Both the position numbers and the translations under genes were made by a program. From NCBI RefSeq assembly GCF_013113715.1, contig NZ_CP053344.1, positions 620,001 through 684,000 of the forward strand: a DNA stretch of 64,000 nucleotides, given 5' to 3'. Shown here piece after piece: positions 34,997 to 49,756 of this stretch (the stretch's first letter is position 1; every line of letters begins with the position of its first letter). The notes below the pieces were generated by a model, which saw nothing but the letters and a program-made list of their open reading frames with translations, was not told the DNA's origin and made no database searches. Source of the stretch: Herbiconiux sp. SALV-R1 (GTDB lineage Bacteria; Actinomycetota; Actinomycetes; Actinomycetales; Microbacteriaceae).

Positions 34997-35074
34997 TCAG
35001 CGGCGACCTTTCGGGGAGGCGATCTCGGCCAGAACAGCGGATGCGCGCTCGACCGCACAGGCACGCCCTGACAC
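34997..35074 (-). CDS. Possible 25-codon leader peptide upstream of the DUF4407 gene
   Basis: GTG 35074 lies 8 nt from a TAGCTT box and opens a 25-codon frame (M-S-G-R-A-C-A-V-E-R...) that ends in TGA at 34997. The TGA is immediately followed by the ATG of the DUF4407 gene. In the sister promoter at 49.7 kb the equivalent GTG is the start of the kinase-like gene itself. The frame may be a translated leader coupled to DUF4407, or a by-product of a shared promoter. Short, so uncertain. Confidence 0.35.
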   Translation of the reverse strand: MSGRACAVERASAVLAEIASPKGRR

Positions 35075-35107
35075 GAGGAGCGAAGCTACTGCACGTGCAT
35101 CCACGTT
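35068..35107 (-). promoter_or_regulatory. Promoter of the DUF4407 gene, shared type with 49717-49756
   Basis: On the minus strand the pattern is AACG-N2-GATG-N8, then a 22-bp block containing GTAGCTTCGCTCCTCGTG. The 22-bp block differs from the 49.7-kb copy at one base (TAGCTT versus TAACTT in the -10 position). Confidence 0.7.
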
Positions 35108-35155
35108 TCCTGGCACGTCGCTGTGCCCGGGTGGAGAGCGGCCGGCGCACGCGAA

Positions 35156-35189
35156 CGCCCCCTCGCCCGGCGAACCGAAGGAGGGGGCG
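35156..35189 (-). terminator. Hairpin downstream of the nitrilase-family gene
   Basis: CGCCCCCTC (35156-35164) pairs with GAGGGGGCG (35181-35189) round a 16-nt loop, 29 bp past the stop of the amidase-like gene. Confidence 0.45.
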
Positions 35190-35217
35190 GTCGAGTCGAA
35201 GCCGGAGGGCAGTGGGC

Positions 35218-36309
35218 CTACTCGCCGTAGCCCGTCGGAGGCGTGAGCACGCCGCGCTCGATCAGCTTCTCGATGTTGTCGGCCCGGGTCTGGTGCTCGC
35301 GAGCCAGCCAGCCCTCGCTCGGAGGGGCGTCGAGGTACTGGTTCTTCGGGTAGATCGGCTGGTCGTAGATGGCCCGGTACTGCTCGGTGCGCAGGTCTTT
35401 GAACTGGTTGTAGAGACCGTTCGCCACGCGTGCCCGCCGCAGGGCCTCGATGTCGATCGTCGTGCAGACGAACGAGTCGCCCGTGGTCCAGCCGCGCTGC
35501 TGCGTGAGCACCTGGCCGCGCGGGCCGACGATCATCGACTGGCCGCCGAAGAGGTCTTGCACGCCGCCGTCTTCGCGGTACTCCGGCCCGAGGTTCGGCG
35601 CCACCACGTAGGCGGAGTTGAACATGGCGTGGGCGCGGTTCTGCAGCTCCCACATGCCGTTCTGCACGGCCGGCTCGATGAGGGTGGGGCGGATGATGAT
35701 CTCCGCGCCGTTCATGGCGAGCCCGCGCGCCACCTCGGGGTAGACACCCTCGTGGCAGATGGCGATGCCGATGTTGCCGATCTCGGTGCGCGCCACCGGG
35801 AAGATGGCGTCCATCACGTTGCCGTTGCCCTTCTTCTCGATCCACTCGTCCCACACGTCGTGCGGGTTCATGTTGCCGAGCATGCCGCCCTCGTAGGCGT
35901 CGCTGGTGGCCTTGTAGCGCTTGTAGACGATCTCGCCCTGCGGGTCGATGATGAACGCCACGTTGAAGTGGCGGTCGGGGAAGTCGTCGTCTTTCACCAT
36001 GTACAGCTCGGCCGCGATGTAGGTGTCGAGTTCGCGGGCCTTCTTGGCCAGCTCGTCGGTCTCGGGGCCGGGGATCGTCACGGCGAAGTGACGCTCCTTC
36101 TCGCGGTTGCCGGGGAAGTTGGCGATCATGCCCTGGATCGCCATCTCGGGAAGCACCACCAGTCGAACCGGGGAGCCTTCCCATCGACCCACCATGACGG
36201 CGGTGTCGATGAATTCGTTGATTCGCTTCACATTCGCCACACCATCGCCCGGATTCTTCACGGTGAAGGTTCGGGGCGACACTGCCACGACGACGAAGGG
36301 GTCGACCAT
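35218..36309 (-). CDS. Nitrilase-superfamily C-N hydrolase (amidase-like)
   Basis: This 363-residue enzyme has the Glu-Lys-Cys triad: Glu55 in VVLPEMAIQG, Lys133 in VYKRYKAT and nucleophile Cys185 in GIAICHEGVYPE. It hydrolyses an amide, carbamoyl or nitrile bond in the cytoplasm. The long insert after the lysine (GGMLGNMNPHDVWDEW) recalls aliphatic amidases and formamidases. ATG 36309 is preferred over upstream starts because AAGAGAG is well spaced and the fold starts there. It is the last gene of the catabolic locus and has its own promoter region with two LacI-like operators, so it seems to belong to the same regulon as the ABC transporter. Confidence 0.82.
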   Translation of the reverse strand: MVDPFVVVAVSPRTFTVKNPGDGVANVKRINEFIDTAVMVGRWEGSPVRLVVLPEMAIQGMIANFPGNREKERHFAVTIPGPETDELAKKARELDTYIAAELYMVKDDDFPDRHFNVAFIIDPQGEIVYKRYKATSDAYEGGMLGNMNPHDVWDEWIEKKGNGNVMDAIFPVARTEIGNIGIAICHEGVYPEVARGLAMNGAEIIIRPTLIEPAVQNGMWELQNRAHAMFNSAYVVAPNLGPEYREDGGVQDLFGGQSMIVGPRGQVLTQQRGWTTGDSFVCTTIDIEALRRARVANGLYNQFKDLRTEQYRAIYDQPIYPKNQYLDAPPSEGWLAREHQTRADNIEKLIERGVLTPPTGYGE

Positions 36310-36387
36310 GTTCGTGCTCTCTTTCCATGGGGAACGCGGAGCTGATCCGCGCTGATCGAATTGCGCTGGTGAGCGATCCGGAAGATC

Positions 36388-36405
36388 TGAGTTAGCGCTC
36401 ACTCA
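36388..36405. promoter_or_regulatory. LacI-like operator, type 1
   Basis: TGAGTTAGCGCTCACTCA is symmetrical except at one base pair, with the AGCGCT centre usual for LacI/GalR operators. It is 78 bp upstream of the amidase gene. A near-identical site, TGAGTTACCGATCACTCA, occurs at 45899-45916. Confidence 0.65.
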
Positions 36406-36477
36406 GACTAGTCGCGTCGACGATGCCGCCGCAAGAGTGGCAGGCGAAAGCCACCCGACGGGTTGACGGCGGGAGCT

Positions 36478-36492
36478 TGTTAGCGCACTATC
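36478..36492. promoter_or_regulatory. LacI-like operator, type 2
   Basis: TGTTAGCGCACTATC is repeated exactly at 45825-45839. Here it lies 4 bp downstream of the stop of the first lacI gene and 168 bp upstream of the amidase gene. The 187-bp gap holds both operator types and nothing else clear. Confidence 0.65.
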
Positions 36493-36496
36493 GGGA

Positions 36497-37561
36497 TCAG
36501 CCCCGGCGCGCGGGCGCACTGGTCTGGCGCACCACCAGCTCGGGCTGGAGGAGCGGGATGACCTCGTCGGCCCCGCCCTTGATCATGGCCAGGATGCGGC
36601 TGACCGCCGTGTGACCGATCTGCTCGAAGTCGAGGGTCACGGTGGTGAGCGCGGGCCGGTAGTAGGCCGACTCCTTGACGTTGTCGAAGCCGACGACGCT
36701 GACCTGGCCCGGCACCTCGATGCCCGCCTCGTCGAGCGCCTTCACCACGCCGAGCGCGAAGGGGTCGTTGGCGGCGAATACGGCGGTGACCTCGAGGGTC
36801 TCGGCGATCATCCGTCCCACCCGGTAGCCCTCGGCCGCCGACCAGTCGGTGGTGGTGAAGGCGGGCGGCGCCACGCGGCCCTGGGCCGAGAGCTCCTCGG
36901 CCCAGCCGCGGGCGCGAGCGGTCGACGCCATCCATCCCTCGGGCCCCTGCACGTGCCAGACGGTCTCGTGTCCGAGCTCGAGCAGGTGCCGCACGGCCTC
37001 GCGCGCTCCGCGCACCTCGTCGATGGAGATGCTGGTGGCGCTCGCGGGCGTGCCCTGCTCGAAGGTGACCATCGGCACGCCGATGTCGAGACTCTGGATG
37101 ACCGAGATGGCCTCGTAGAGCGGGGCCAGCACGATGATGCCGTCGACCGCATCCGGCCCCACCGATTCGAGGGCGGAACGGATGGCGTGGCGATCGAGCG
37201 ACCCCAGCGTCACCAGGCGTGTGGAGTAGCCGTGCCGGCGGGCCTCCTCCGAGATTCCGTAGAGGGCGACCGACGGCCCCAGCACCGCGAGCTCGAAGCT
37301 CACGACGCCGATGGTCATCGTGCGGTTGCTCGCGAGGGCGGCGGCGGCCGGGTTGCGCCGGTAGCGCAGCTGCTCGATCGCGCGCTCGACGCGTTCGCGG
37401 ATCTCGGGCGCGACGTTCTGCGCCCCGTTCACGACCCGAGACACCGTCTGCTGCGACACCCCGGCGAGCTTCGCCACGTCGATCATGCGCGGCCCCTGGG
37501 AGCGCGAGCCGAGCCGTTCTCCGCGGGTGCTTGTCGTGGAGGCTGAGGCGGCGCGAGGCAT
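36497..37561 (-). CDS. LacI-family transcriptional regulator (first of two)
   Basis: This 354-residue repressor has a 25-residue basic N-terminal extension, the HTH MIDVAKLAGVSQQTVSRVVN (26-45) and hinge helix RNPAAAALASN. The periplasmic-binding-type effector domain contains GIIVLAPLYE, TSISIDEVRG and AVFAANDPFALGVVKAL. A CATAAT box lies 6 nt before ATG 37561. It is 59 bp downstream of the dehydrogenase small-subunit gene, on the same strand. The effector domain resembles its neighbour LacI at 41 kb closely by eye, suggesting duplication within the locus. Confidence 0.9.
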   Translation of the reverse strand: MPRAASASTTSTRGERLGSRSQGPRMIDVAKLAGVSQQTVSRVVNGAQNVAPEIRERVERAIEQLRYRRNPAAAALASNRTMTIGVVSFELAVLGPSVALYGISEEARRHGYSTRLVTLGSLDRHAIRSALESVGPDAVDGIIVLAPLYEAISVIQSLDIGVPMVTFEQGTPASATSISIDEVRGAREAVRHLLELGHETVWHVQGPEGWMASTARARGWAEELSAQGRVAPPAFTTTDWSAAEGYRVGRMIAETLEVTAVFAANDPFALGVVKALDEAGIEVPGQVSVVGFDNVKESAYYRPALTTVTLDFEQIGHTAVSRILAMIKGGADEVIPLLQPELVVRQTSAPARRG

Positions 37562-37567
37562 CTGCTC

Positions 37568-37573
37568 ATTATG
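37568..37573 (-). promoter_or_regulatory. -10 box (CATAAT) for the first lacI gene
   Basis: On the minus strand CATAAT is followed by GAGCAG and ATG 37561, a leaderless arrangement. Confidence 0.45.
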
Positions 37574-37620
37574 CCCGCCCGGGCGCCGGTCGACAGTCGT
37601 CGCCACGGGCGGGCCGCCGC

Positions 37621-38334
37621 TCACGGCCGGCGGTAGCGCAGCACCTCGGGGTGCCGCTCGTAGGGCCACTCCGCACCCTCGACCATGTAGGAGCGGGTGG
37701 TGTAGCTGCCGTCCATCGTCGACGCGAGGCTCGGCGGGCCGTCGAAGCCGATGACGCCCCAGCCCACGCGGTTCTCGTTGCCGCCGTAGACCGGGTCTCC
37801 GTAGAAGCCCTGGCGGGTGTTCAGCACGAGGAGGGGGAAGAACTCCAGGAAGTCCTCGTTCACCGGCTGGTTGCCGGCGGGGGCGCCGCCGAGGCCGACC
37901 CCCTCGTCGTTCAGCGCGAACCGTCCTGGCTTCGACGCGCCCGAGAGCTCCTCCAGCACGGCGTCCTGCGCCTGTTCGTCGAGCTTGACGAAGGCCGGCG
38001 CCCCGCGCTTCTCGGCGAGTGCGTCGAGTTGGCGCACGCCGTCGCGGTAGAAGCCCTGCCGCGCCTCGATGCGCTCCTGCCAGGCCTCCTCCTCGAGTCC
38101 CTCCATGCGGAGGAAGCCGTTGCCGTCGGCGGCGGGGAAGATGAACTGCGTGCCGGCGAGCATCCGGTCGATGAAGCGCACCACCTTCGCCTCCCGGGCA
38201 CCGGGGTGGTGGTCGGTGGGGATGATGCGGGCCGTGGCGGCCTCGACCGTCGCCCACTCGTGCTCGGTGAAGAACAGCGGTTCGTCGTCGTCTCGTGTGG
38301 AGATGGGCGCGGTCACCCATTCTGCCTGTCCCAT
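37621..38334 (-). CDS. Gluconate 2-dehydrogenase subunit 3 family protein (small subunit of the GMC enzyme)
   Basis: This 237-residue protein begins FFTEHEWATVEAATARIIPTDHHPGA (about 21-46), the signature of the small subunit that escorts GMC-type sugar dehydrogenases. In most systems this subunit carries a twin-arginine signal and takes its folded partner out of the cell. Here no signal peptide is present, so the complex should remain in the cytoplasm. The middle (AGNQPVNEDFLEFFPLLVLN) and C-terminal GSYTTRSYMVEGAEWP resemble forms found in Actinobacteria. It lies 31 bp after the GMC gene. Confidence 0.82.
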   Translation of the reverse strand: MGQAEWVTAPISTRDDDEPLFFTEHEWATVEAATARIIPTDHHPGAREAKVVRFIDRMLAGTQFIFPAADGNGFLRMEGLEEEAWQERIEARQGFYRDGVRQLDALAEKRGAPAFVKLDEQAQDAVLEELSGASKPGRFALNDEGVGLGGAPAGNQPVNEDFLEFFPLLVLNTRQGFYGDPVYGGNENRVGWGVIGFDGPPSLASTMDGSYTTRSYMVEGAEWPYERHPEVLRYRRP

Positions 38335-38365
38335 GGTGAAGTCCTTTCTTGAGTCGGTGTCGTCG

Positions 38366-40018
38366 TCAGTCGGTCGTCCAGCCGTGGCGGTCGACCTGCA
38401 GGATGCGGTCGGCGCAGCGCCAGGCGTTCGCCATGATGGTGAGCGCCGGGTTGATGCCCGTGGCGGTGGGGAAGAAGCTGGCGTCGAACACGTAGAGGTT
38501 CGGCACCTCGTGCGAGCGGCACCAGCGGTCGACGACCGAGGTGGCCGGGTCGTCGCCCATGCGGGTGGTGCCGAGCTCGTGCGAGGTGTTGCCCGTGATG
38601 CGCTCCATGTTCACCGGAACCACCCGGGAGGCGCCCGCCGCCTCGAGGATCTCGCCGTTCTTCTTCACCTGCCAGCGCTCCTGCGCGAAGTCGTTCGCGT
38701 GGGGCGTGTGGGTGATGCGCGCGACCGGCAGGCCCCACGCATCCTTCACCGTCGGATCGAGGTCGACCCGGTTGCTCTCGACCGGGAGGTCGTGCAGCAG
38801 GATGCCGATCTTCATGCTGTGGTTGAAGAACTCGCGGTCGGCGTCTTTCGCGGCGGCGCCCCAGGTGGGGCGGCCGGGGAAGCTCCAGTTCACCGGGTGC
38901 CCGATCATCGAGGGGAAGATGAGCGAGCCCAGGATGTGCCCGCGGCTCTCGTCGGTCTCGTAGAAGTCGAACGAGCACAGGCTCATGTAGTGCCCGGCCC
39001 AGCCGTAGAGCGGGTCGTGCACCTCGCGGTCGAACAGACCCACCGAGAACGAGTACTGGTGGAAGGTCGCGTTCTTGCCCACGAGCCCGCTGCCGTTGCC
39101 GAGACCGTCGGGATGCTGTGCCGACTTCGACATGAGCAGCAGCCTCGGCGTCTCGATGCCGCCCGCGCAGACGATGACGGCCTTGGCGTACTGCACGAAC
39201 TCGTCGCCGTCCTCATCCTGATACCGCACCCCGGTGGCCTTGCCGTCGGCGCCGACGAGGATCTCGCTCACGTAGCAGTCGGAGCGGAGGTCGTAGCGGC
39301 CGGTGGAGATGGCGTCGGGGATGAAGCTGATGAGCGTCGACGACTTGCCGGTGCCCGGGTCGGGATACTGCTGCCAGAAGCCGTTCTCGCTGAACGGCTG
39401 GCGGCCGCGATAGGGCTCGGTGACCATGCCCTGCGGCATGGGGAAGGTGCTGTGGCCGAGCTTGTCCATGGCCGTGGCGAAGGTGCGGCCGATCTGGCTG
39501 AGCGTCGAGGGCTTCGTGGGGTAGCCCTTACTGCGGGGAGCCTCCCAGCGGTTCGCTCCGGCGAGACCGGAGGTGCCGAACTCCCATTCCACCCGGGTGT
39601 AATAGGGCTCGAGCTCGTCGTAGCTGATGGGCCAGTCGACGAGGCTCGCGCCGGGCACGTCGCCGTGGAGGCTGCGCAGCTTGAAGTCGCTGAGCGCCAT
39701 GCGCGGCACCATGCCGCCCCAGTGGGTGGTGCCGCCGCCGACGACCTGGGGGGTCGCGGAGAAGTTCGTGATCACGGCCTCCTCGCTGTCGTTCTGGCGG
39801 TAGGTGCGGGGCTTCAGCTTCGGGTCTTGCCAGATGAAGTTGCGGTTGAGGAACTTCAGCTCGTCACCGGAGGCGTGCTCGGGCTTCAGCCACGGTCCGC
39901 GCTCGAGGCCCACCACGGTGAGGCCGGCCTCGCTCAGCACCTTGGCCGCGGTGGCTCCGCCGGCGCCGGCACCGACGATCACCACGTCGACGGCTTCGGG
40001 GTTCTTCTTCCTGGTCAT
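38366..40018 (-). CDS. GMC-family FAD-dependent sugar/glycoside oxidoreductase
   Basis: This 550-residue flavoprotein has the Rossmann FAD motif VVIVGAGAGGATAAKVLSEA (12-31) and the GMC pattern GGTTHWGGMVPR (about 95-106). A second dinucleotide loop, VICAGGIETPRLLLMS, follows. The active-site His lies in NTSHELGTTRMG, and the final GMC stretch is TATGINPALTIMANAWR with the conserved Asn. It is cytoplasmic, with no signal. With its small subunit it should oxidise a sugar or glycoside hydroxyl, plausibly at C3 as in glucoside-3-dehydrogenases and C-glycoside 3-oxidases. The 4-bp overlap with the aldo/keto reductase gene shows coupling. Confidence 0.85.
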   Translation of the reverse strand: MTRKKNPEAVDVVIVGAGAGGATAAKVLSEAGLTVVGLERGPWLKPEHASGDELKFLNRNFIWQDPKLKPRTYRQNDSEEAVITNFSATPQVVGGGTTHWGGMVPRMALSDFKLRSLHGDVPGASLVDWPISYDELEPYYTRVEWEFGTSGLAGANRWEAPRSKGYPTKPSTLSQIGRTFATAMDKLGHSTFPMPQGMVTEPYRGRQPFSENGFWQQYPDPGTGKSSTLISFIPDAISTGRYDLRSDCYVSEILVGADGKATGVRYQDEDGDEFVQYAKAVIVCAGGIETPRLLLMSKSAQHPDGLGNGSGLVGKNATFHQYSFSVGLFDREVHDPLYGWAGHYMSLCSFDFYETDESRGHILGSLIFPSMIGHPVNWSFPGRPTWGAAAKDADREFFNHSMKIGILLHDLPVESNRVDLDPTVKDAWGLPVARITHTPHANDFAQERWQVKKNGEILEAAGASRVVPVNMERITGNTSHELGTTRMGDDPATSVVDRWCRSHEVPNLYVFDASFFPTATGINPALTIMANAWRCADRILQVDRHGWTTD

Positions 40019-40959
40019 CGTTCGACTCCGTTCTGTCCGACACGGGCGAGCTCGAGGAGCTCGCTCCAGAGGTCTTCGGGGATGGGGGTTTCGAGCAGCT
40101 CGACTGTCGCGTCGACACGCTCGGGTCGCGACATGCCGACGATGGTCGAGGCGACCCGCTCGTCGCGCACCGAGAACTGCAGCGCGGCGGCGGCGAGCGG
40201 CACGTCGTGCTCGCGGCAGAGGTCTTCCATGCGCTGAACCCGCGCGAGGGTGGCGTCGGAGACCGGCGCGTAGCAGTAGGTGGGCACGACCGACGGGCCC
40301 TTCACGAGCATCCCGCCGCCGAAGGGAGCGGCGTTCACGACGGCGACACCGTCGCGGGCGGCTCGCTCGAGCAGCGGTTCGGCCGTCTGGTCGACGAGGG
40401 TGAAGCGGTTGTGGCTGATGACCACGTCGAACACCCCGGTGTCGAGGTACTGCAGCTCGAGGTCGATCGGGCCGCCGGCCACGCCGAGGCTCTCGATGAC
40501 CCCGGCGTCGCGCAGCTCGACGAGCGCCTCGACCGGGCCGCCCGACGCGACCCCCTCCTCGAACGAGATCTTCTCGGGGTCGTGCAGGTACACCAGCTGC
40601 AGGCGGTCGAGCCCGAGTCGCTCGAGGCTCTCCTCGACCGACCGCTTGACGCGCTCGCTGGAGAAGTCGGTCGAGCCGGGCAGCGGGTCGACCTTGGTGG
40701 CGACCACGAAGCCTTCGGGCACGCCACCCCGATTGCGGATGGCGGTGCCGATGCGGCGCTCACTGTCGCCGCCGCCGTACTCGTTGCTGGTGTCGATGAA
40801 GGTGAACGGGCCGTCGAAGACGCGCTCGATGGTGGCGACCGCCGTGTCTTTGTCGACCTCGTAGCCGTACTGGGCGGGGAAGCTGCCGAGGGCGCTCGTG
40901 CCCACGCACACGCTCGACACCGAGAAGCCGGTGCGGCCGAGGGGTCGGAGGGATGTCAT
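40015..40959 (-). CDS. Aldo/keto reductase
   Basis: This 314-residue TIM-barrel NAD(P)H oxidoreductase has a catalytic tetrad visible as Asp and Tyr in FIDTSNEYGGG, Lys in VVATKVDPLPG and His in VYLHDPEKISF. The cofactor pocket is near VGMSRPERVDATVELL. It is closest in style to D-threo-aldose 1-dehydrogenase-like enzymes, which oxidise L-fucose or D-arabinose. It could reduce the keto product of the GMC enzyme or oxidise a free sugar. Overlaps of 4 bp with both lacI-2 upstream and the GMC gene downstream place it firmly in the operon. Confidence 0.85.
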   Translation of the reverse strand: MTSLRPLGRTGFSVSSVCVGTSALGSFPAQYGYEVDKDTAVATIERVFDGPFTFIDTSNEYGGGDSERRIGTAIRNRGGVPEGFVVATKVDPLPGSTDFSSERVKRSVEESLERLGLDRLQLVYLHDPEKISFEEGVASGGPVEALVELRDAGVIESLGVAGGPIDLELQYLDTGVFDVVISHNRFTLVDQTAEPLLERAARDGVAVVNAAPFGGGMLVKGPSVVPTYCYAPVSDATLARVQRMEDLCREHDVPLAAAALQFSVRDERVASTIVGMSRPERVDATVELLETPIPEDLWSELLELARVGQNGVER

Positions 40960-42005
40960 GATCTCTTCTTTCTCTGTTCGTTGGTTCGTGGTGGGGGCGC
41001 GGTGCTGTCACGCCCCAGAAGCTGTGGTGCCACCGGCCGTGGTGGCGCGGGTTCGCGGCCGGCCATGAGTTCGAGCACGTGGTCGACCGCCTGGCGGCCC
41101 ACCTCGCTGAAGTCGAATCGCACCGTCGAGAGGGCGGGCCTGAAGTACGCCGACTCGGGGATGTCGTCGAAGCCGATGACCGAGACCTCGCCCGGCACCC
41201 GCCGACCGGAGTCGACGAGGGCGCGCACCACGCCGAGCGCCATCTGGTCGTTGGCGGCGAAGACCGCGGTCACCGCGCCGTCGAGCGCGAAGCGGAGGCC
41301 GGCCTCGTACCCCGACTCGGAGGTCCAGTCGCCTTCGACGGGCGGATGCGCGGGGAGGCCGGCCTCAGACAGTGCCGTCCTCCACCCCTCGAGTCGGGCA
41401 GCGGTGCCGAGCCAGCCCGGAGGGCCCGACACGTGGTGCACCGTGCCGTGCCCCAGCGCGATGAGGTGCACGGTGGCGAGCCGCGCCCCCGCCACCTCGT
41501 CGGTGGCGATGGTGCCGAGCGTCGCCGGGCCGCCGGGGTGGAAGACGACGAGCGGAACCTCGGGGGAGAGGCCCTCGATGGCGACCAGGGCGGCCTCGAA
41601 CGGGGCGAGCACGATCACGCCGTCGACCGAGTCGGCCATGAGGTGGTCGAGCGCGTTCTGCATGGCGCCGTGATCGAGTTCGGTGAGGCTCACCAGGTTG
41701 GTGGCGTAGCCCGCCCGCCTGGCCTCGTCGACGATGCCGGTGAGGGCGACCGAGGGCCCGAACTGCGCGAGGCCGAAGCTCACGATGCCGATGCTCATGC
41801 TCTGCCGGGTGACGAGGGCCCTGGCCGCCGGGTTGCGGCGGTAGCGCAGCCGGTCGACCGCGGTCTCGACGCGTTCGCGCATCTCGGGGGTGACGCTGTC
41901 GGAGCCGTTCAGAACGCGCGAGACCGTCTGGTGGGAGACACCGGCGAGCCGCGCCACGTCGATCATCCTGACCTTCCTCCCGTTCGAGGGCTGCTCGCGC
42001 GCCAT
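40956..42005 (-). CDS. LacI-family transcriptional regulator (second of two)
   Basis: This 349-residue protein has the HTH MIDVARLAGVSHQTVSRVLN (14-33), hinge RNPAARALVTR, and an effector domain with GVIVLAPFEAALVAI, LGTIATDEVAGA and AVFAANDQMALGVVRAL. The gene lies inside the operon it probably controls: 3 bp after the permease gene and overlapping the aldo/keto reductase gene by 4 bp. It is a near relative of the LacI at 36.5-37.6 kb. Which of the two binds which operator type cannot be told from sequence. Confidence 0.9.
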   Translation of the reverse strand: MAREQPSNGRKVRMIDVARLAGVSHQTVSRVLNGSDSVTPEMRERVETAVDRLRYRRNPAARALVTRQSMSIGIVSFGLAQFGPSVALTGIVDEARRAGYATNLVSLTELDHGAMQNALDHLMADSVDGVIVLAPFEAALVAIEGLSPEVPLVVFHPGGPATLGTIATDEVAGARLATVHLIALGHGTVHHVSGPPGWLGTAARLEGWRTALSEAGLPAHPPVEGDWTSESGYEAGLRFALDGAVTAVFAANDQMALGVVRALVDSGRRVPGEVSVIGFDDIPESAYFRPALSTVRFDFSEVGRQAVDHVLELMAGREPAPPRPVAPQLLGRDSTAPPPRTNEQRKKRS

Positions 42006-42008
42006 GGC

Positions 42009-43088
42009 TCAGCGGGCGAGCGCCGCGCGCCGTCCCCGACCGCCGACGAGTTTCGAGAAGAAGCGCGAGATGCGCTGCACCCCTCCCGCGCTCGACAGGA
42101 AGACCGCGATCACGATCACCGCGCCCTTGATGACGAGCTGCGGCTCCGACGAGATGCCGACGAGGTTCATGATGTTGATGATCGTGGCGAGCACGAAGAC
42201 GCCGATCACCGCGCTCACCGGGTCGCCCTTGCCGCCCATCAGCGAGGCGCCACCCACGACCACCGCGGCGATCGCATCCAGCTCGTAGCCCACGCCGATG
42301 AGCGAGCTACCCTGCCGCAGCTGGGCCGCGGCGATGAGGCCGGCGAGACCGGCGAGGATGCCGGAGAGCGTGTAGGTGATGATGAGGTTGCGGGACACCG
42401 GCAGGCCCGACAGGCGCGCCGCCTCGGGGTTGCCGCCGATGGCGTAGAGCGAGCGGCCGAAGGTGGTGAACTTCGCCACCAGCGCGGCGAGCACGGCGAC
42501 GACGATGAAGATGACGACGGGGTTGCGCACGCCGAGCACGGTGCCGCTCGAGAAGGCCTGGATGAACGCCTCGTCGAGGATCTGGATGAGGCTCGTCGAC
42601 TGGATGATGTAGCTGAAGCCCTTGACCGCGCTCATCATGGCGAGCGTGGCGATGAAGGGAGGGATGCGCAGCCACACCACGAGCAGGCCGTTGACGAACC
42701 CGGCGGCGGCGCAGCACAGCAGGGTGACGCCCACGGAGAGCCCCGCCGACATCCCCGTCTGGAGGGTGAGCGCGACGATCACCGTCGACATCGCGAGGAT
42801 CGACCCCACCGAGAGGTCGATGCCTCCGGTGAGGATGACGAAGAACTGGCCCACCGCGAGCACGGCGACGATGGAGGCGGCGGCGATGACGTTCTCGGCG
42901 TTCCGCAGCGTGAGGAAGTCGGCCGAGACGTAGTAGCCGACGATGATGATGGCGAGCAGCACCAGCAGCAGGTAGCTCTTGCCGAGCAGGCGCTTGCCGA
43001 GGCTGCGCATCCGGTTCGCCGTGCTGGGCCCGGGCGGGGTGGGGGCTGTGCTGTTGCCGACCGGTGGCCGGAGGGTGTTCTGGGACAT
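42009..43088 (-). CDS. ABC sugar transporter permease (RbsC-like)
   Basis: This 359-residue integral membrane protein has about 8-10 helices between residues 38 and 345. The family signature GGIDLSVGSILAMSTVIVAL (about 88-107) and the coupling-helix region GGNPEAARLSGLPVSRNLI, which meets the ATPase, are both clear. The N-terminal 30 residues are Pro/Thr/Ser-rich and cytoplasmic. It forms the channel of a carbohydrate-uptake transporter of the CUT2 (ribose/xylose/galactose) class with the two genes upstream. It is followed after 3 bp by lacI-2. Confidence 0.9.
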   Translation of the reverse strand: MSQNTLRPPVGNSTAPTPPGPSTANRMRSLGKRLLGKSYLLLVLLAIIIVGYYVSADFLTLRNAENVIAAASIVAVLAVGQFFVILTGGIDLSVGSILAMSTVIVALTLQTGMSAGLSVGVTLLCCAAAGFVNGLLVVWLRIPPFIATLAMMSAVKGFSYIIQSTSLIQILDEAFIQAFSSGTVLGVRNPVVIFIVVAVLAALVAKFTTFGRSLYAIGGNPEAARLSGLPVSRNLIITYTLSGILAGLAGLIAAAQLRQGSSLIGVGYELDAIAAVVVGGASLMGGKGDPVSAVIGVFVLATIINIMNLVGISSEPQLVIKGAVIVIAVFLSSAGGVQRISRFFSKLVGGRGRRAALAR

Positions 43089-43134
43089 GGGCTTCTTCGC
43101 TCTTCTCAGGAGTAGGTGTGGTGAGTCGTGGGGC

Positions 43135-44655
43135 TCAGGCGAACCGGCTGAGGATCGCCTTCCCCTGCGGGTCTATCTCGTCGTGGTTGAGCTCGGCGAC
43201 GACCGAGCCGCGGGCCATCACGAGCACGCGGTCGCACATCATCGCCTCGGTGATCTCGGAGCTCGCGATGATGACGGTGCCGCCGCCGCGGGCGTAGTCG
43301 CGGAGGAGCTCGTACATGTCCTCCTTCGCTCCCACGTCGACGCCGCGCGTCGGTTCGTCGCAGATGAGGATGCGCGACTTGCGCACCAGCCAGCGCGCCA
43401 GGATGGCCTTCTGCTGGGTGCCGCCGCTGAGGGTCTTGACGGGCTGGTTGACCCCCGAGACCTTCATGCCGAGCCGGGTCACCATGTCGGCGGCGACCCG
43501 GCGCTCGCGGCGGGAGTCGATGACGCTCAGGCGGCTGAACGCGGGAAGGCTCGCCAGCGTGATGTTGGCGGCGACCCCGAGATCGGGTACGAATCCCGCC
43601 GTCTTGCGGTCTTGGGGGAGCAGGCCGATGCCGCGCCGGATGGCGTCGCGGGGTGCCGCGAGGTCGACCCGCTTGCCGTCGATGCGGATGGATCCGGATG
43701 CGCGTCGCCGGGCCCCGGCGAGGAGGCCGGCCAGCTCCGACTGGCCGCTCCCGATGAGCCCCGACATGCCGAGCACCTCGCCGCGCCGCAACTCGAACGA
43801 CACGTCGTCGACGTGACCCTCGTCGGAGAGGCGGTCGACCGAGAGGATCACCTCCTCGCCGCGGCCCGTCCCGAGGCGGGGTGAGCGCTCGCCGCGCAGC
43901 GCCGTCTCGGCGATCGACCCCTCCAGGCTCTTGCCCACCATGGCGGTCACCACGTCGGAGGGGGTCGAGTCTGCGGTGTCGAACTCGGCGGCTGTCGCCC
44001 CGTCGCGCAGCACGGTGACCGCGTCGCAGAGCGAGTACACCTCGTCCATGCGGTGCGAGATGAACAGCAGGGTCACGCCCTCGGCCGCCAGCGACCGCAG
44101 CACGGTGAACAGCTTCTCGACGTCGGGGCTCGGCAGGGTGGAGGTGGGCTCGTCGAGCAGCAGCACCCTGGCGTCTTTGTGCAGCGCCTTCGCCAGCTCG
44201 ACGGCCTGCTGCTCGGCGGTGGAGAAGCTGCCCACCGGTGCGCGCACGTCGAGGTCGAAACCGACCCTGGCCAGCGCATCCTGAGCCTCGCGGTACATGC
44301 GCGCCCAGTCGACCTTGCCCGCCTGGCGGGGAAGGCGGCCGAGGAAGATGTTCTCGGCGACGGAGAGCGAGGGCACCAGGGAGAGCTCCTGGTAGATGGT
44401 GTGGATGCCGGCGTTCTGCGCATCCGTCGGCTCACGGAAGCGCATGTCCTTTCCACCGAGGCGGATGGTGCCGCCGTCGGGGGTCTCGGCGCCGGAGAGC
44501 ATCTTCACCAGGGTCGACTTGCCCGCCCCGTTCTGGCCGGCGAGGGCGTGGATGGAGCCCTTCGTCACCGAGAACGTCACGCCCTTCAGGGCTTGGACGC
44601 CGAGGTAGCCCTTGGTGATGCCGTCGAGCTCGAGCTCGATCGTGCCGCCCCTCAT
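43135..44655 (-). CDS. ABC sugar transporter ATP-binding protein, two NBDs (RbsA-like)
   Basis: This 506-residue CUT2-type ATPase has two fused nucleotide-binding domains. Domain 1 has Walker A GQNGAGKST, signature FSTAEQQAVELAKAL and Walker B VLLLDEPTSTL. Domain 2 has the degenerate Walker A GLIGSGQSELA, signature LSGGTQQKAILARWL and Walker B ILICDEPTRGVDVGA. ATG 44655 overlaps the stop of the binding-protein gene by 4 bp. The permease follows after 46 bp. It energises import of the sugar handled by this locus. Confidence 0.92.
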   Translation of the reverse strand: MRGGTIELELDGITKGYLGVQALKGVTFSVTKGSIHALAGQNGAGKSTLVKMLSGAETPDGGTIRLGGKDMRFREPTDAQNAGIHTIYQELSLVPSLSVAENIFLGRLPRQAGKVDWARMYREAQDALARVGFDLDVRAPVGSFSTAEQQAVELAKALHKDARVLLLDEPTSTLPSPDVEKLFTVLRSLAAEGVTLLFISHRMDEVYSLCDAVTVLRDGATAAEFDTADSTPSDVVTAMVGKSLEGSIAETALRGERSPRLGTGRGEEVILSVDRLSDEGHVDDVSFELRRGEVLGMSGLIGSGQSELAGLLAGARRRASGSIRIDGKRVDLAAPRDAIRRGIGLLPQDRKTAGFVPDLGVAANITLASLPAFSRLSVIDSRRERRVAADMVTRLGMKVSGVNQPVKTLSGGTQQKAILARWLVRKSRILICDEPTRGVDVGAKEDMYELLRDYARGGGTVIIASSEITEAMMCDRVLVMARGSVVAELNHDEIDPQGKAILSRFA

Positions 44656-45734
44656 TCCTCGTTCGCCTTCACGTAGGTGTCGTCGGCCACGTAGTAGTCG
44701 GCGGCGTTCTCGGGCGTGACGACGGTGGTGTCGATGTAGAGGGTCTTGTCGGGGCACTGCGACTGGTCGTCGTTGAAGGCGGCGAGGGCCATCTTCACGG
44801 CGGTGGCGCCCTGGTCCCATGGCTGGTTCGAGGCGGTGGCCTGGAGCGGGCCGGTCGGGTCGTCCATCATCTCCTTCACCGAGACCATGCCGCCGTCGTA
44901 GCTGGCCAGGATGATGCCGTCGCCCCAGATGCCCGCCTGCTGGAGGCCCTGCACCACGCCGCCGTTCATGACATCGCTCATGCTGTAGACGATCTTGAGG
45001 TCGGGGTTGGCGGTGGCGACGTCGCGGATGGGGGCGAGGGCCTTGTCGGGCTTCCACTCGCCGTACTTCGTGTCGAGGGTGGTGGTCTGGATGCCGGGGT
45101 GGGCCTCCATCACCTTGTCGTAGCCCTCGAGGAAGCCGTTGAAGCGCAGGTCGCTCAGCACGTCGCCCGGGAAGCCGCCGATGCCGACGATCTTCACCTC
45201 ACCGGTGTCGCCGAACTTCTCGAGGGCCTTGTTCGCGGCCACCTCACCGGCGAGCGAGCCGGTGTACTCCTGGTCTTCGGCGACGTAGCAGAACATGTCG
45301 GGAACGAGGCTCTCGTCGAGGTTCGAGTTGACCGTCACGAGCGGGATGCCGGCGTCCTTCAGCGCCTGCACCGACGGGCCGACGCCGATGGGGTCGTTGG
45401 CGTTCATGACGACGACGTCGACGCCCTTGGTGATGAGGGTCTGCACGTCGGCGTTCTGGCGCACCGTGTCGCCGTTGGCGTCGAGCAGTTCGATGCGGGC
45501 GCCGATCTTGTCGGCCTCGGCCTGGCCGCCCTCGACGAGGGTCTTCCACCAGTCGCTGCCGCTGATGCCGCGCTGGCTCCAGCCGATGACGAGGCCGTCG
45601 CCGCTGGCTTTGTCTTCGTCGGAGGCGGGGCCGCCGCCGGCGCGGCACCCGGTGAGGGCGAGGGCTGACACGGCGAGAACTGCAGCGCCGGTGACGAGGC
45701 GGCCGGTGAACCGGCGTCGGGATGACGTGATCAT
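44652..45734 (-). CDS. Sugar ABC transporter substrate-binding lipoprotein
   Basis: This 360-residue lipoprotein has a signal with RRRF and lipobox SALALTGC (lipidated Cys30), then a type I periplasmic-binding fold. The fold shows VIGWSQRGISGSDWWKTLVE, KGVDVVVMNANDPIGVGPSV, GIPLVTVNSNLDE and DVMNGGVVQGLQQAG. It binds the imported sugar at the cell surface. The start at ATG 45734 has GAAGGAG 8 nt before it. It is the first gene of the nine-gene catabolic locus, and both LacI operator types lie upstream. The ligand is not predictable; CUT2 proteins bind mono- or disaccharides, polyols or autoinducer-like sugars. Confidence 0.88.
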   Translation of the reverse strand: MITSSRRRFTGRLVTGAAVLAVSALALTGCRAGGGPASDEDKASGDGLVIGWSQRGISGSDWWKTLVEGGQAEADKIGARIELLDANGDTVRQNADVQTLITKGVDVVVMNANDPIGVGPSVQALKDAGIPLVTVNSNLDESLVPDMFCYVAEDQEYTGSLAGEVAANKALEKFGDTGEVKIVGIGGFPGDVLSDLRFNGFLEGYDKVMEAHPGIQTTTLDTKYGEWKPDKALAPIRDVATANPDLKIVYSMSDVMNGGVVQGLQQAGIWGDGIILASYDGGMVSVKEMMDDPTGPLQATASNQPWDQGATAVKMALAAFNDDQSQCPDKTLYIDTTVVTPENAADYYVADDTYVKANEE

Positions 45735-45916: not shown

Positions 45917-45923
45917 CGCTATT

Positions 45924-46424
45924 TCAGCGGCGGCGGCGGGGCGCTGCGGAGCGCGGCGGGTTCGACCGCATGTGGTCGCGCACGGCCGACAGCGTGCGCC
46001 CGAGCTCGGCCACCTCGCCCGCGTCGATCGGCGCGAGGAAGAGCTTCTTCAGCACCGCGATGTGCCCCGGGAACACCGTGGCGAGCCGGTCGCGGCCGGC
46101 CTGCGTGATCGTCACCGTTACGCTGCGCTCGTCCTCGAGCGATGGCGCCCGGGTGACTAGCCCGGCCTTCTCGAGCAGCCCGGCCTGGTGGGTGAGGCCG
46201 CTCCTGCTGTAGACGACCCCGTCGGCGAGGTCGGTCATCCGTCTGCTGCCTTCGGGGGAGTCGCCGAGGGTGGCGAGCAGCTGGAACTGCACGTAGCTGA
46301 GGTCGCCCGCCTCCTTCAGCTGCTGCTCGACGGCGTGCCGCAGCAGGCTGCTCACCTCGATGAGCGCGAAGTAGGCGCCGAGTTCGGTGGGGTCGAGTGC
46401 TGCGTCGGTCGTCTCGTCGGTCAT
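45924..46424 (-). CDS. MarR-family transcriptional regulator
   Basis: This 166-residue winged-helix protein has helices ELGAYFALIEVSSLLRHAVE at the start, recognition region MTDLADGVVYSRSGLTHQAG (about 63-82) and wing RAPSLEDERSVTVTITQAGR. The Arg-rich tail is DHMRSNPPRSAAPRRRR. It is divergent from a quinone-oxidoreductase gene, the classic layout for a MarR repressor and its target. Two perfect TGCTTCGA-N2-TCGAAGCA palindromes lie between them. ATG 46424 is fixed by a TAGACT box 7 nt upstream. Confidence 0.88.
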   Translation of the reverse strand: MTDETTDAALDPTELGAYFALIEVSSLLRHAVEQQLKEAGDLSYVQFQLLATLGDSPEGSRRMTDLADGVVYSRSGLTHQAGLLEKAGLVTRAPSLEDERSVTVTITQAGRDRLATVFPGHIAVLKKLFLAPIDAGEVAELGRTLSAVRDHMRSNPPRSAAPRRRR

Positions 46425-46431
46425 GGTGCCC

Positions 46432-46437
46432 AGTCTA
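46432..46437 (-). promoter_or_regulatory. -10 box (TAGACT) for the marR gene, leaderless type
   Basis: On the minus strand TAGACT is followed by 7 nt and ATG 46424. It abuts the first MarR operator. Confidence 0.5.
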
Positions 46438-46439
46438 CT

Positions 46440-46494
46440 TGCTTCGAGATCGAAGCACTGTTACAGTCATGGTAAGTGCTTCGACATCGAAGCA
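46440..46494. promoter_or_regulatory. Twin MarR operators
   Basis: TGCTTCGAGATCGAAGCA (46440-46457) and TGCTTCGACATCGAAGCA (46477-46494) are perfect 8-2-8 palindromes differing only in one central base, with centres 37 bp apart. A TACAGT box (46462-46467) lies between them, probably for the plus-strand gene. Confidence 0.8.
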
Positions 46495-46542
46495 AACGGA
46501 TGCGCAAGGTATCCCGCCATCAACCAGCGAAGGAGACACATC

Positions 46543-47481
46543 ATGAAGGCAGCACGTTTCCACCAGCACGGGGCCCCCGAGGTTCTGCAGATCGACGACG
46601 TCGAGACTCCCGCTCCGGGCGCGGGCGAGGTGCGCATCCGCGTCGCCGCGTCGGCGTTCAACCCGGCCGACAACGGCATCCGGGCGGGGTACCTCCCGAT
46701 TCCGGTCGAGCTTCCGCACACCCCGGGTTACGACGTCTCCGGCACGGTCGACGCCCTCGGCGAGGGGGTCTCGGGGCTGGCCGTCGGCGACGCGGTCATC
46801 GGCTTCCTCCCCATGACGGCGCCGGGTGCCGCCGCCGAGTTCGTCGTCGCCCCTGCTTCGGCACTCGTCGCGGCCCCGACCTCGATCGCTCTCGAAGTCG
46901 CGGCGGCGATCCCGTCGGTCTCGCTCACCGCGTGGCAGGCGCTCTTCGACGAGGCGGGCCTGGCTACCGGTCAGCGCATCCTCATCACCGGCGCCGGCGG
47001 CACGGTCGGCGGCTTCGCCGTGCAGTTCGCGAAGCGCGCCGGCGCCCACGTCATCGCCACGGCGAGCCCGCGCTCGGCGGCGTCGGTGCGCGCGGCAGGG
47101 GCTGACGAGGTGGTCGACCACACGGCATCCTCGGTGCTTTCCGCGCTCTCCGCCCCCGTCGACGTCCTCCTCAACCTCGCCCCCCTCGACGCCGACGAGT
47201 TCACCGCCCTCGTCGCCCGCGTTCGCGACGGCGGCGTGGTCGTCAGCACCACCGCCTGGATGCCCACCCCCGACGACGAGTCCCGCTCGGTGCGCTCGGT
47301 GGTCGTCTACGTGCGCAGCGATGCCGACGAGCTCGCCCAGATCGCGTCCCTGGTCGACTCGGGCGCGGTGCGCGTCGAGGTCGCCCGCCGCGTGACCCTC
47401 TCGGGCCTCGCGGACGTGCACGCCGAGGCCACCGCCGGCACCCTCCGCGGCAAGGTCATCGTCCTGCCCACCGTCAACTGA
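46543..47481 (+). CDS. Quinone oxidoreductase-like medium-chain dehydrogenase
   Basis: This 312-residue NADP-dependent enzyme of the zinc-less alcohol-dehydrogenase group has a GroES-like N-domain with PAPGAGEVRIRVAASAFNPAD and HTPGYDVSGTV. The Rossmann domain contains ILITGAGGTVGGFAVQFAKR (about 146-165). No zinc-binding Cys pattern is seen. It reduces quinones or other reactive carbonyls. ATG 46543 has GAAGGAGA before it. It is the target of the adjacent MarR, suggesting induction by a toxic quinone or aldehyde. Confidence 0.88.
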   Translation: MKAARFHQHGAPEVLQIDDVETPAPGAGEVRIRVAASAFNPADNGIRAGYLPIPVELPHTPGYDVSGTVDALGEGVSGLAVGDAVIGFLPMTAPGAAAEFVVAPASALVAAPTSIALEVAAAIPSVSLTAWQALFDEAGLATGQRILITGAGGTVGGFAVQFAKRAGAHVIATASPRSAASVRAAGADEVVDHTASSVLSALSAPVDVLLNLAPLDADEFTALVARVRDGGVVVSTTAWMPTPDDESRSVRSVVVYVRSDADELAQIASLVDSGAVRVEVARRVTLSGLADVHAEATAGTLRGKVIVLPTVN

Positions 47482-47482
47482 G

Positions 47483-47511
47483 GTATATACTCGCGGGCAC
47501 AGCGCATATAC
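47483..47511. promoter_or_regulatory. Probable operator repeats of the RHH/Doc operon
   Basis: GTATATAC (47483-47490) and GCATATAC (47504-47511) are 21 bp apart, two helical turns on the same face, just ahead of the ribosome-binding site. Small repeated AT-rich words of this type suit ribbon-helix-helix dimers. Confidence 0.5.
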
Positions 47512-47524
47512 GAAGGGAGGCATC

Positions 47525-47740
47525 GTGCCCTCGACGAAGACCAAGAAGCTCATCGGCTTCACCCCAGAGCAGATCGAGATGATCAACGAACTCGCCGCTC
47601 GCCAGGGAACGACTTTCACCGCGATCGTGTCAGAGGCGGTCGACGACTACGCCGCTGTTCGTGCCACCGGCATGAACCAGATTCTCGACAGGCTTCTGAT
47701 CGAGCACGGTGACGTCATCGATCGCCTGTCGCGCACGTGA
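47525..47740 (+). CDS. Ribbon-helix-helix antitoxin of the Doc pair
   Basis: This 71-residue protein has an N-terminal strand TKKLIGFTPEQIEMINELAA followed by TTFTAIVSEAVDDYAAVR, the ribbon-helix-helix fold of CopG/ParD-like antitoxins. The last 25 residues are helical and probably bind the toxin. GTG 47525 follows GAAGGGAGG. The toxin gene starts inside its stop (GTGA), the usual coupling of antitoxin and toxin. Phd, the common Doc partner, is of a different fold, so this is an alternative pairing. Confidence 0.75.
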   Translation: MPSTKTKKLIGFTPEQIEMINELAARQGTTFTAIVSEAVDDYAAVRATGMNQILDRLLIEHGDVIDRLSRT

Positions 47741-48135
47741 ACGTGAACCCGATCACGTTCCCAGAAGTCATGCACATCATCGCACGGCTCTTCGATACGG
47801 ATCGGCCCGAAGAGCGCGTCAGGGATTCGGCGCTCCTGCTGTCAGCGATCGGCCGCCCGACCGCCTCCATGTTCGGGCAGGAGGCCTACCCGGGCATTCA
47901 CCACAAGGCCGCCGCACTGCTCCACGGGCTCGCGAAGAACCACTCGCTCTTCGATGGGAACAAGCGGCTGGCCCTAGTCGCCGCGCTCTTCTTCTACGCC
48001 AAGAACGGGTACTGGAACACGATCGACATCGAGGGCGAGTACCAGTTCATGCTCGACGTCGCTTCGGATGAGCTCGACTCGATCGATGAGATCGCTGCCT
48101 GGTTGGGGGAGCGCTTCGCCCCGGAAGCCCAGTGA
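47737..48135 (+). CDS. Doc/Fic-family toxin
   Basis: This 132-residue protein has the Fic/Doc motif HSLFDGNKRLAL (69-80). His69, Asp73, Asn75, Lys76 and Arg77 fit the Doc pattern, in which Lys replaces the second Gly of Fic AMP-transferases; the Phe is one place later than usual. Doc enzymes phosphorylate elongation factor EF-Tu and halt translation. The N-terminal helices (EVMHIIARLFDTDRPEERVR) and the SAIGRPTASMFGQEAYP flap match Doc. It overlaps the antitoxin gene by 4 bp and ends one base before the convergent kinase-like gene. Confidence 0.82.
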   Translation: MNVNPITFPEVMHIIARLFDTDRPEERVRDSALLLSAIGRPTASMFGQEAYPGIHHKAAALLHGLAKNHSLFDGNKRLALVAALFFYAKNGYWNTIDIEGEYQFMLDVASDELDSIDEIAAWLGERFAPEAQ

Positions 48136-48136
48136 C

Positions 48137-49723
48137 CTAGCGGTCGTCGGCCCGTGCGTCGACGTCGTTGCGACCGCGGCCGGTGGGAAGAGCGGGCCCG
48201 CCCGGGGGCAAGACTTCACCCAAGAACTTCTCGAAGGAGGGGAAGAGGGCCGCGTGGTCGCGGGAGGCGCGTTCGGCCTCGAGCCCGATGCGCAGCACGT
48301 CGTTCAGGGGCATCGCGTCGGCGTCGAGGCGGGCGCGGAGCGCCGCCATGCGCTCGTAGGGGGAGCCGCCCGCATCCGACTCGGCACCGGATGCGATGCC
48401 GAGCCCCGCCTGCAACGGCGCCAGGTCGGGCAGCACGCCGAGCGACCCGGGCACCTCGACCGTCGCCATCGGCAGCCGTCCGGGCGTCGGGACGGGCAGC
48501 ACCCGCACGGGGTCTGACAGCACCTCGACCTCGCCGTGGGCGTTGCGGGCCCGCACGCTGATGCGTCCGCTCTGCCGCGCGGTGAAGCGCTCCGACACCA
48601 CGCGCCGCGCCACCTCGCGGGTGATGAACGCGCGGCCCGGCAGCTCGATCGTGACCTGCTGCGCGCCCGACACCGAGATCTCGAGCCGCACCTCGTCGCC
48701 CTCCGCCACGAGCGCCGGGCTCACGTCGACGCTCCGGATGACGGGTGCCGCGAGATTCTCGAGCAGCACGCCGCGGAGGTAGCCGTACCAGTCGGCGGCC
48801 GACGGGCGGTGCGAGGCGTCGTCGGCGAGCGCATCCGTCATCAGCTGCAGCCCGGTCGCGTCGAACACGGTGCGCACGCGATCGGGGTCACGACTCCGCT
48901 CCAGCCCCTCGCCCGCCGGTGCGAGCACCCGCAGGATGAGCAGCGCGAGCTTGTACCGATCGGTCGCGGGAGTCTGCACCGACGGAGTCGTCGTGAGCGC
49001 AGCATCCGCCTCGCCGTAGGCCTCGGGTGCCGCCCAGCCCGCGCTGTTGCGCTGCAGCGCCTCCTCGCCCGCGAACGCCGCACCCTCGCACCCCACGACG
49101 AACGCCGACGCCACCTCGCCCGCCCCGAACAGCACCGACCGCTCGCTCAGGTCGCCGAACACGACACCGTTGCGGTGCAGCAGTTCGACCAGCACGCACA
49201 CCCGGGCGAGCACGGTGATGCGGGTGAGCAGGTCACGCTCCGACACCACCGCGGCTCCCGCCCGCCGAGCGCGCTTCGGCGCGCCGACCAGCCACTTCAC
49301 CTGCTGCGGCGCCTTGCTCCCGCGGCTGCCGCCCTCCTCGACGGGCACGAAGTAGAACGGATGCGCGGCCAGCGGCACGAGACACCCCACGACCCCGCCG
49401 TCGTCGCCCTCCACCACGGCCAGCGGCCACGCCGCCACCCCGTCGAGCGTCGCCCGGTCGCGCGCCTCGAACCCCCAGCGCAGGGCGACGAGCCGCGCGA
49501 GGGTCGCCGAGTTCCAGAACGGGGCGTCCGCGTCGCGGAACCGCACGAACGCGAGCCCGCCGCGGTGCCCGGGCACGGTGAAGCTGTCGAGCCGCAGCGC
49601 CTCGGTCGCCGGCCCGCCGCCGATCGGCGTGCGCGCTCCGAGGTCGGCTTCGCGCACCCGGATGCCCGCGGCCCGCGAGACGGGTCGCCCGTCGGCGGCT
49701 TCGGGGGGCTGAGACTCTGACAC
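48137..49723 (-). CDS. Protein-kinase-like (probable pseudokinase) protein with Ig-like domain
   Basis: This 528-residue protein has a kinase-like fold (about 40-330). ALRWGFEARDRAT stands near the N-lobe. LLTRITVLARVCVLVELLHR leads to NGVVFGDLSERSVLF, which matches the catalytic loop (H-x-x-x-x-D-x-x-x-x-N) with Ser in place of the metal-binding Asn. VVGCEGAAF stands where DFG is expected, lacking its Asp. TDRYKLALLILRVL resembles the F-helix. A beta domain of Ig type follows (about 335-425; VSPALVAEGDEVRLEISVSG), then a helical tail. It resembles YegI-type kinases found with DUF4407 or VWA proteins. It starts at GTG 49723 within a promoter shared with DUF4407. Confidence 0.7.
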   Translation of the reverse strand: MSESQPPEAADGRPVSRAAGIRVREADLGARTPIGGGPATEALRLDSFTVPGHRGGLAFVRFRDADAPFWNSATLARLVALRWGFEARDRATLDGVAAWPLAVVEGDDGGVVGCLVPLAAHPFYFVPVEEGGSRGSKAPQQVKWLVGAPKRARRAGAAVVSERDLLTRITVLARVCVLVELLHRNGVVFGDLSERSVLFGAGEVASAFVVGCEGAAFAGEEALQRNSAGWAAPEAYGEADAALTTTPSVQTPATDRYKLALLILRVLAPAGEGLERSRDPDRVRTVFDATGLQLMTDALADDASHRPSAADWYGYLRGVLLENLAAPVIRSVDVSPALVAEGDEVRLEISVSGAQQVTIELPGRAFITREVARRVVSERFTARQSGRISVRARNAHGEVEVLSDPVRVLPVPTPGRLPMATVEVPGSLGVLPDLAPLQAGLGIASGAESDAGGSPYERMAALRARLDADAMPLNDVLRIGLEAERASRDHAALFPSFEKFLGEVLPPGGPALPTGRGRNDVDARADDR

Positions 49724-49756
49724 GAGGAGCGAAGTTACCCGAGCTACATCAGCGTT
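49717..49756 (-). promoter_or_regulatory. Promoter of the kinase-like gene, shared type with 35068-35107
   Basis: On the minus strand the pattern is AACG-N2-GATG-N8, then GTAACTTCGCTCCTCGTG and four further bases. Twenty-one of the last 22 bases match the DUF4407 promoter, and the spacing of the upstream words is the same. The GTG at 49723 is the start codon. Confidence 0.7.

Follow-up and report, generated by a model that had tools for sequence, protein, structure and literature searches.

The 64,000-nucleotide stretch of Herbiconiux sp. SALV-R1 analysed here (NZ_CP053344.1, positions 620,001 to 684,000; hereafter the window) carries two minus-strand genes that are each headed by a copy of the same 46-bp promoter-like element. 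One gene (33260..34996) encodes a DUF4407 protein of 578 amino acids (Pfam PF14362, E=2e-77, 260.9 bits against a cut-off of 31.3). The other (48137..49723) encodes a 528-residue pseudokinase, composed of a kinase-like region, a beta-sandwich (perhaps immunoglobulin-like) at about residues 327-408 and a helical C-terminal part. Element copy D, before the DUF4407 gene (35069..35114, minus strand, profile score 51.7 bits), contains a -10-like TAGCTT (35083-35088), a GGAAAC block (35105-35110) and a conserved GTG (35072-35074). In copy K, before the pseudokinase gene (49718..49763, minus strand, 41.5 bits), the corresponding parts are TAACTT (49732-49737), GACAAC (49754-49759) and a GTG (49721-49723) that is the likely start codon. 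Copy K of the window has the lowest score of all 30 sites found in Herbiconiux.

A sequence-only reading of the window had drawn attention to the resemblance between 35068-35107 and 49717-49756. Indeed, on the minus strand GTARCTTCGCTCCTCGTGTCAG is identical at 21 of 22 bases, and AACG-N2-GATG occurs in both copies at equal spacing. The observation of a duplicated promoter-like element holds, with a correction to its length, which had been put at 40 bp. A scan of the whole genome (4.52 Mb), which the same reading had recommended, returned GTARCTTCGCTCCTCGTG, with up to two mismatches allowed, at two places, which lie in the window and match exactly; for the reversed pattern, used as control, the same limit also gave two places. 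In twelve Markov-1 sequences with the size and dinucleotide make-up of the window, 23-mers that differ at no more than one base formed three direct and two inverted pairs. Five such direct pairs exist in the window itself, and the promoter pair is not one of them because its match is only 22 bases long. The match is therefore not decisive from the window alone, and it is the conservation across the genus that decides.

The pattern TARCTTCGCTCCTCGTGTC, built from the two sites of the window only, was found with up to two mismatches at 26 places in 16 Herbiconiux genomes, against one place for the reversed control. The matches are spread over 15 of the 16 genomes, the source genome included (14 of the 15 relatives), and DUF4407 or kinase-like genes start at 25 of the 26 places, the remaining one being G014:C70. 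A 46-bp profile made from 30 sites gave 30 matches that score 41.5-59.2 bits. Of the 16 genomes, 15 have two each, always in front of these same two genes; the next-best scored match reached 16.4 bits (in each genome 150 of 4,833-6,638 first-look candidates were scored). Since the 30 sites had themselves built the profile, each of the 17 fetched loci was scored again with a profile from whose training set its own species and close relatives, as grouped by hand, had been removed. The true sites then scored 36-72 bits and the best background stayed below 0 in each of the 17 loci. A search with a half-element pattern added no further sites. Among the scored matches no gene other than these two has the element, so the outcome that the sequence-only reading had named as fatal to it, many copies before unrelated genes, did not occur.

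The 30 sites align over 46 bp without gaps, with 17 invariant columns and 13 more that are at least 90% conserved. Mean identity within the core is 0.845 between copies D, 0.792 between copies K and 0.778 between a copy D and a copy K, as against 0.33-0.46 in the upstream and 0.30-0.47 in the downstream flank. The element was absent from 21 other fetched stretches, in which the best profile scores ranged from -25.4 to 2.8 bits: seven DUF4407 loci from other genera of the family, 11 loci from the class, a Rhodococcus plasmid stretch and two stretches of the one Herbiconiux genome that lacks both genes (G006).

The layout of the element is CCAGGGAACGC-N-GATGC...GTGGGGTAGCTTCGCTCCTCGTG, with GGGAAC, GATG, TAGCTT and CTTCGCTCC as its sequence blocks; among the 30 sites the upstream block most often takes the form GGGAAC. 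The T, the A and the last T of a TANNNT hexamer located eight bases ahead of the GTG are invariant in all 30. A TANNNT a few bases ahead of a GTG is the usual layout of leaderless actinobacterial promoters, and every one of the 30 sites shows this SigA-type arrangement.

The alternative sigma factor suggested by the sequence-only reading agrees less well with the sites. If the element were an extracytoplasmic function (ECF) promoter of the SigE/SigH type, GGAAC-N18-GTT, the pair would belong to the envelope-stress regulon of that sigma factor. The upstream block does resemble the GGAAC of actinobacterial SigH/SigE promoters, for which excerpts of PMC10012870 give the C. glutamicum consensus GGAAC-N17-18-cGTT, and at seven of the 30 sites a GTT follows GGAAC at a distance of exactly 18 nt. 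At the other 23, however, the GTT is missing, so that the set as a whole does not follow a GGAAC-N17-19-GTT spacing and the -10 side fits in those seven sites only. Moreover, CTTCGCTCCTCGTG falls outside the ECF consensus, and the element has additional conserved bases down to the GTG. The numbers differ as well, with two sites per genome against the fifteen genes of the SigH/SigE regulon in the same excerpts (PMC10012870). The looser pattern GGNAAC-N15-GTANNTT occurs at a single place in the genome, namely copy D, and its reversed control at one place also. We consider an ECF promoter unlikely. Given the TANNNT at 30 of 30 sites and the ECF spacing at only seven, a TANNNT promoter with a dedicated regulator is favoured, a specialised sigma factor being possible.

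Slightly less likely again is that these are ordinary leaderless SigA promoters, of which the second arose by local duplication, with no special co-regulation of the genes. The position of the TANNNT just before GTG is in line with this explanation, and the two genes are neighbours, so that a local duplication would be easy. With a plain SigA promoter, on the other hand, one would not expect conservation of at least 90% at 30 of 46 columns, those beyond the -10 hexamer among them, nor a GTG retained where this is not the start codon, while the flanks drift to 30-47% identity.

The latter situation is found at copy D. In the window the DUF4407 gene has a leader of 78 nt (34997..35074, minus strand), which runs from the conserved GTG over 25 codons to a TGA directly before the ATG at 34996; this leader frame is kept in some relatives only. 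The DUF4407 start suggested by homology is an ATG located 72-81 nt past the conserved GTG in 11 of the 15 genomes that have the gene. Three of these 11 have the ATG in another frame than the GTG, four (the source genome included) have a TGA directly before it, and in the other four the frame from GTG to ATG is open. In the remaining four of the 15 genomes there is no leader, the GTG being the first codon of the DUF4407 frame. Because of the frame shifts in three and the TGA in four, the GTG of copy D is kept for a reason other than being the DUF4407 start codon in at least seven genomes. Coding conservation as the cause of this GTG was also ruled out, as the frame that follows it is lost in some species. 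The leader (34997-35074) further contains a stretch resembling GCGCATCC and a CGAAAGG-like stretch, possibly a ribosome-binding site, both recurring in relatives.

The DUF4407 protein has hydrophobic stretches near residues 33-128 and 317-350 that flank a long helical region, in which it resembles DUF4407 proteins (PF14362) in general; its tail is variable and, judged by the alignment, ends in a conserved C-terminal motif. The structure model has low confidence (mean predicted local distance difference test, pLDDT, 55.1), too weak for a fold search. The papers retrieved that name DUF4407 describe no function for it, and the passages concerned only list it. In the seven DUF4407 loci of other genera of the family no match to the kinase profile lies nearby, in contrast to the promoter that the gene shares here with the pseudokinase gene. 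In PMC10719396, a DUF4407 gene of the root isolate Root61 appears with a log2 fold change of 11.0 in a table of genes that respond to the colonisation of roots.

The kinase-like protein has no match in Pfam, phmmer searches with single Herbiconiux sequences gave nothing clear, and an NCBIfam scan gave one weak match, to LanKC (E 0.0016), far under the cut-off. The kinase fold is nevertheless supported by three kinds of searches. With the structure model (mean pLDDT 65.7) as query, Foldseek reached a best E of 1.9e-9 and all of the 50 best matches listed were kinases; among these, template modelling scores normalised by target were about 0.5-0.6 (single-domain chains), with root-mean-square deviations of 6.8-21 A and identities of 11-18%. 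A profile built from 15 orthologs matches kinases of the STE20 type (E 0.0016), and tblastn finds matches of 28-31% identity to intact-looking kinases. The model places strands at residues 327-408, a block with pLDDT values of 84-91. Alignment with two distant homologs whose residues are intact shows that the third loop glycine, the beta3 Lys (replaced by Val), the catalytic-loop Asn (Ser or Ala) and the Asp of the DFG motif (Gly) are lost in every one of the 15 Herbiconiux proteins, while the catalytic-loop Asp is retained. Judged from these residues the protein is a pseudokinase, a loss of catalysis that had not been foreseen by the sequence-only reading. With PADLOC the pseudokinase had a single, weak match, to MkoA (E 0.001, 15.5 bits), and the DUF4407 protein had none; neither PADLOC nor the Pfam scan of the neighbours tested revealed a known anti-phage family or defence-type neighbours in Herbiconiux.

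The two genes had been described as otherwise unlinked, which does not hold for the genus. Wherever both are on one contig (13 genomes), they occur in the same order, kinase first, and on the same strand; in G009 and G011 they are found on different contigs. The distance between the kinase stop and the DUF4407 element varies from 718 bp (G001) to 13,022 bp (the window). The intervening genes differ by species and, as far as tested with Pfam, are mostly metabolic or regulatory. As the copies bracket a region of variable gene content, they might be taken for repeats dispersed in the genome or for the termini of a mobile element. This is highly improbable in view of two copies per genome in 15 genomes, at the same two gene starts and in the same orientation, a pattern that holds even where only 718 bp (G001) or 824 bp (G012) separate them; the nature of the intervening genes argues against it too. 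A chance match, although a near-match of 22-23 bp is not rare within 64 kb, is refuted by the profile searches and by the presence of the element at corresponding places in 15 of the 16 Herbiconiux genomes, which leaves it a negligible probability.

In the sixteenth genome, G006, pair and element are missing together: there is no kinase match, no DUF4407 match above the cut-off and no element (best scored match 14.2 bits). The only weak DUF4407 match lies on another contig (38% identity over 73 residues, E 4.9e-4). The flanking genes are in place (F420-dependent, luciferase-like, MarR, deacetylase, PadR and ABC1), with a gap of about 1 kb between the MarR and deacetylase genes at the place that corresponds to the pair. 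This gap holds no remnants of the kinase or DUF4407 genes, the best of 51 matches up to E 10 having an E of at least 0.2. The corresponding stretch (L172:17580-18537) does contain open frames, one of which has 185 codons and a lipoprotein-like start.

At E 1e-10 the kinase profile matched nothing in the other 292 of 299 genomes of the family, seven of the 299 being Herbiconiux (up to five candidates were scored per genome). At E 0.001 it matched in 18 of 394 genomes of the class, the source genome being one of them (up to three candidates per genome). We read the loci of 11 of the other 17, together with a plasmid stretch of Rhodococcus opacus, the sole kinase match among 72,556 plasmid records. 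On this plasmid, pRop44186_a (NZ_CP082159.1), a DUF4407 gene, a gene for a 198-residue protein and a kinase gene are consecutive on one strand, with DUF262, GIY-YIG, DUF3883 and restriction endonuclease genes as neighbours. Thus the two protein families of the Herbiconiux pair are again close together on one strand. Unlike in Herbiconiux, DUF4407 comes first and the kinase last with a third gene in between, and the kinase residues are intact; the DUF4407 frame as annotated has its start within the domain, and no copy of the element is present (best 2.8 bits). The best match of the class, G563, has VWA, PP2C and DUF4407 genes, a 212-residue frame, a DA1-like frame and the kinase gene in this order, all on the same strand, and a PbeA-like helicase is close by. 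The sequence-only reading had placed relatives of each gene in YegI/VWA/phosphatase-type clusters. For the kinase this is supported: a PP2C gene stands beside the kinase in all three loci tested (G563, G658 and G496) and a VWA-type gene in both loci tested (G563, and G658 below the Pfam cut-off); in G401, G463 and G549 genes of similar size adjoin the kinase.

Such gene sets recall the TerY-P triad, which according to excerpts of PMC11090510 consists of a VWA protein, a PP2C-like phosphatase and a fusion of a Ser/Thr kinase with a zinc ribbon; the same excerpts also mention TerY-P-like modules that have an OB-fold. The likeness lies in the distant homologs of the Herbiconiux protein, which adjoin PP2C and VWA-type genes, and in the PbeA-like helicase near the G563 cluster. 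The Herbiconiux pair itself is not a TerY-P triad, because a linked VWA or PP2C gene was not found and the catalytic residues are lost: no such gene occurs among the 29 proteins that were scanned with Pfam in the window and in the neighbourhoods of its relatives (a subset of the neighbours that includes the two genes themselves), and the four PP2C_2 matches in the source genome are all far away. By alignment, the Herbiconiux protein is predicted not to be an active kinase of the TerY-P type. It further differs from the system of PMC11090510, as far as the excerpts describe it, in the beta-sandwich behind its kinase-like part and in its pairing with DUF4407. The pair may nevertheless work as a signalling switch of the TerY-P kind, with the pseudokinase as a scaffold on a membrane sensor.

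Taken together, we think it likely that a single promoter is present here twice, as the two 46-bp elements, and drives a two-gene regulon cognate to the TerY-P-like clusters. The promoter would have been copied before the sampled gene-bearing Herbiconiux species diverged, both copies being kept since. In the element a TANNNT -10 (TAGCTT), eight bases upstream of the GTG, is joined to the GGGAAC block and to further fixed bases, so that recognition by RNA polymerase with one dedicated regulator, or by a specialised sigma factor, is most likely. The pseudokinase mRNA is probably leaderless, with the GTG as its first bases. The pseudokinase is predicted to be cytoplasmic, with its beta-sandwich region, and the DUF4407 protein to lie in the membrane and to contain a long coiled coil. 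The two most likely assemble into a single envelope-linked complex for signalling or scaffolding. The pair is cognate to the larger VWA-PP2C-DUF4407-kinase clusters and may descend from them, in which case the phosphatase, the VWA protein and catalysis would have been lost. The sequence-only reading is thus confirmed in its observation and partly supported in its interpretation: a single unit, split here and probably expressed together, is indicated by an element found only at these two genes among the scored matches and by the adjacency of the distant homologs in two places.

Some observations weigh against this reading. The element is known from one genus: under stricter filters 6 of the 299 genomes of the family matched, all of them Herbiconiux, which is one of 85 genera. 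Its conservation therefore traces to one origin, and the 15 genomes that carry it include close kin. The two copies of one genome resemble each other only a little more than copies taken from separate genomes do (0.797 versus 0.777 identity, permutation p 0.01), and co-evolution of the copies is merely hinted at, because p weakens to 0.05 without G001, whose two copies are 93% identical. The protein families are not always found together either. As the gene finder was crude and missed the kinase frames of G563 and G547, neighbours were counted anew on six-frame translations. In this count a DUF4407 profile made from Herbiconiux had a match on the plasmid and at one of the 11 class loci. None of the seven DUF4407 loci, which come from three other genera of the family, matched the kinase profile. 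Hence the two are not obligate partners, and their partnership is recurrent, not fixed. Finally, since the frame from the GTG is open in four genomes, a longer DUF4407 protein starting there is possible in these species.

The titles and abstract openings that turned up in literature searches describe neither the pair nor its promoter, and the genus-wide occurrence of a two-gene set with an element of its own suggests an undescribed module. A tentative extension is that a dedicated Herbiconiux regulator or sigma factor reads this element, and that the element serves only to keep the two proteins of a pseudokinase/DUF4407 envelope-signalling module in step, as a minimal regulon of two promoters. 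If so, such a regulon would allow the genes to drift apart by insertions with their co-expression retained, and a split gene pair could remain a unit by duplication of its promoter. The shared promoter gives DUF4407 a partner and places both proteins near the VWA-PP2C-kinase signalling clusters. With two sites per genome, the element should also make a very specific DNA bait for its regulator.

Among the neighbouring genes of the window, a Fic/Doc-family gene (47737-48135, plus strand; Pfam E 4.2e-11) is convergent with the pseudokinase gene. It is preceded by an open frame of 71 residues (47525-48135 region, plus strand), and the two perhaps form a small toxin-antitoxin pair; frames of this cluster also occur near the pair in four other genomes. 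On the DUF4407 side lie genes for an ABC1 atypical kinase and a PadR regulator (27859-30599, minus strand), which are found on that side in the fetched stretches of nine of the 15 gene-bearing genomes, and in G006 as well. The region between the two copies (35218-45671) contains a sugar-type ABC transporter set, a LacI regulator with its paralog, a GMC oxidoreductase and a carbon-nitrogen hydrolase, a block that among the fetched loci is common only to the window and G015. The LacI-family gene at 36497-37486, assigned by Pfam, and the gene at 40956-41966 fall into one protein cluster and have two near-exact stretches of 23-24 bp in common (37347-41887).

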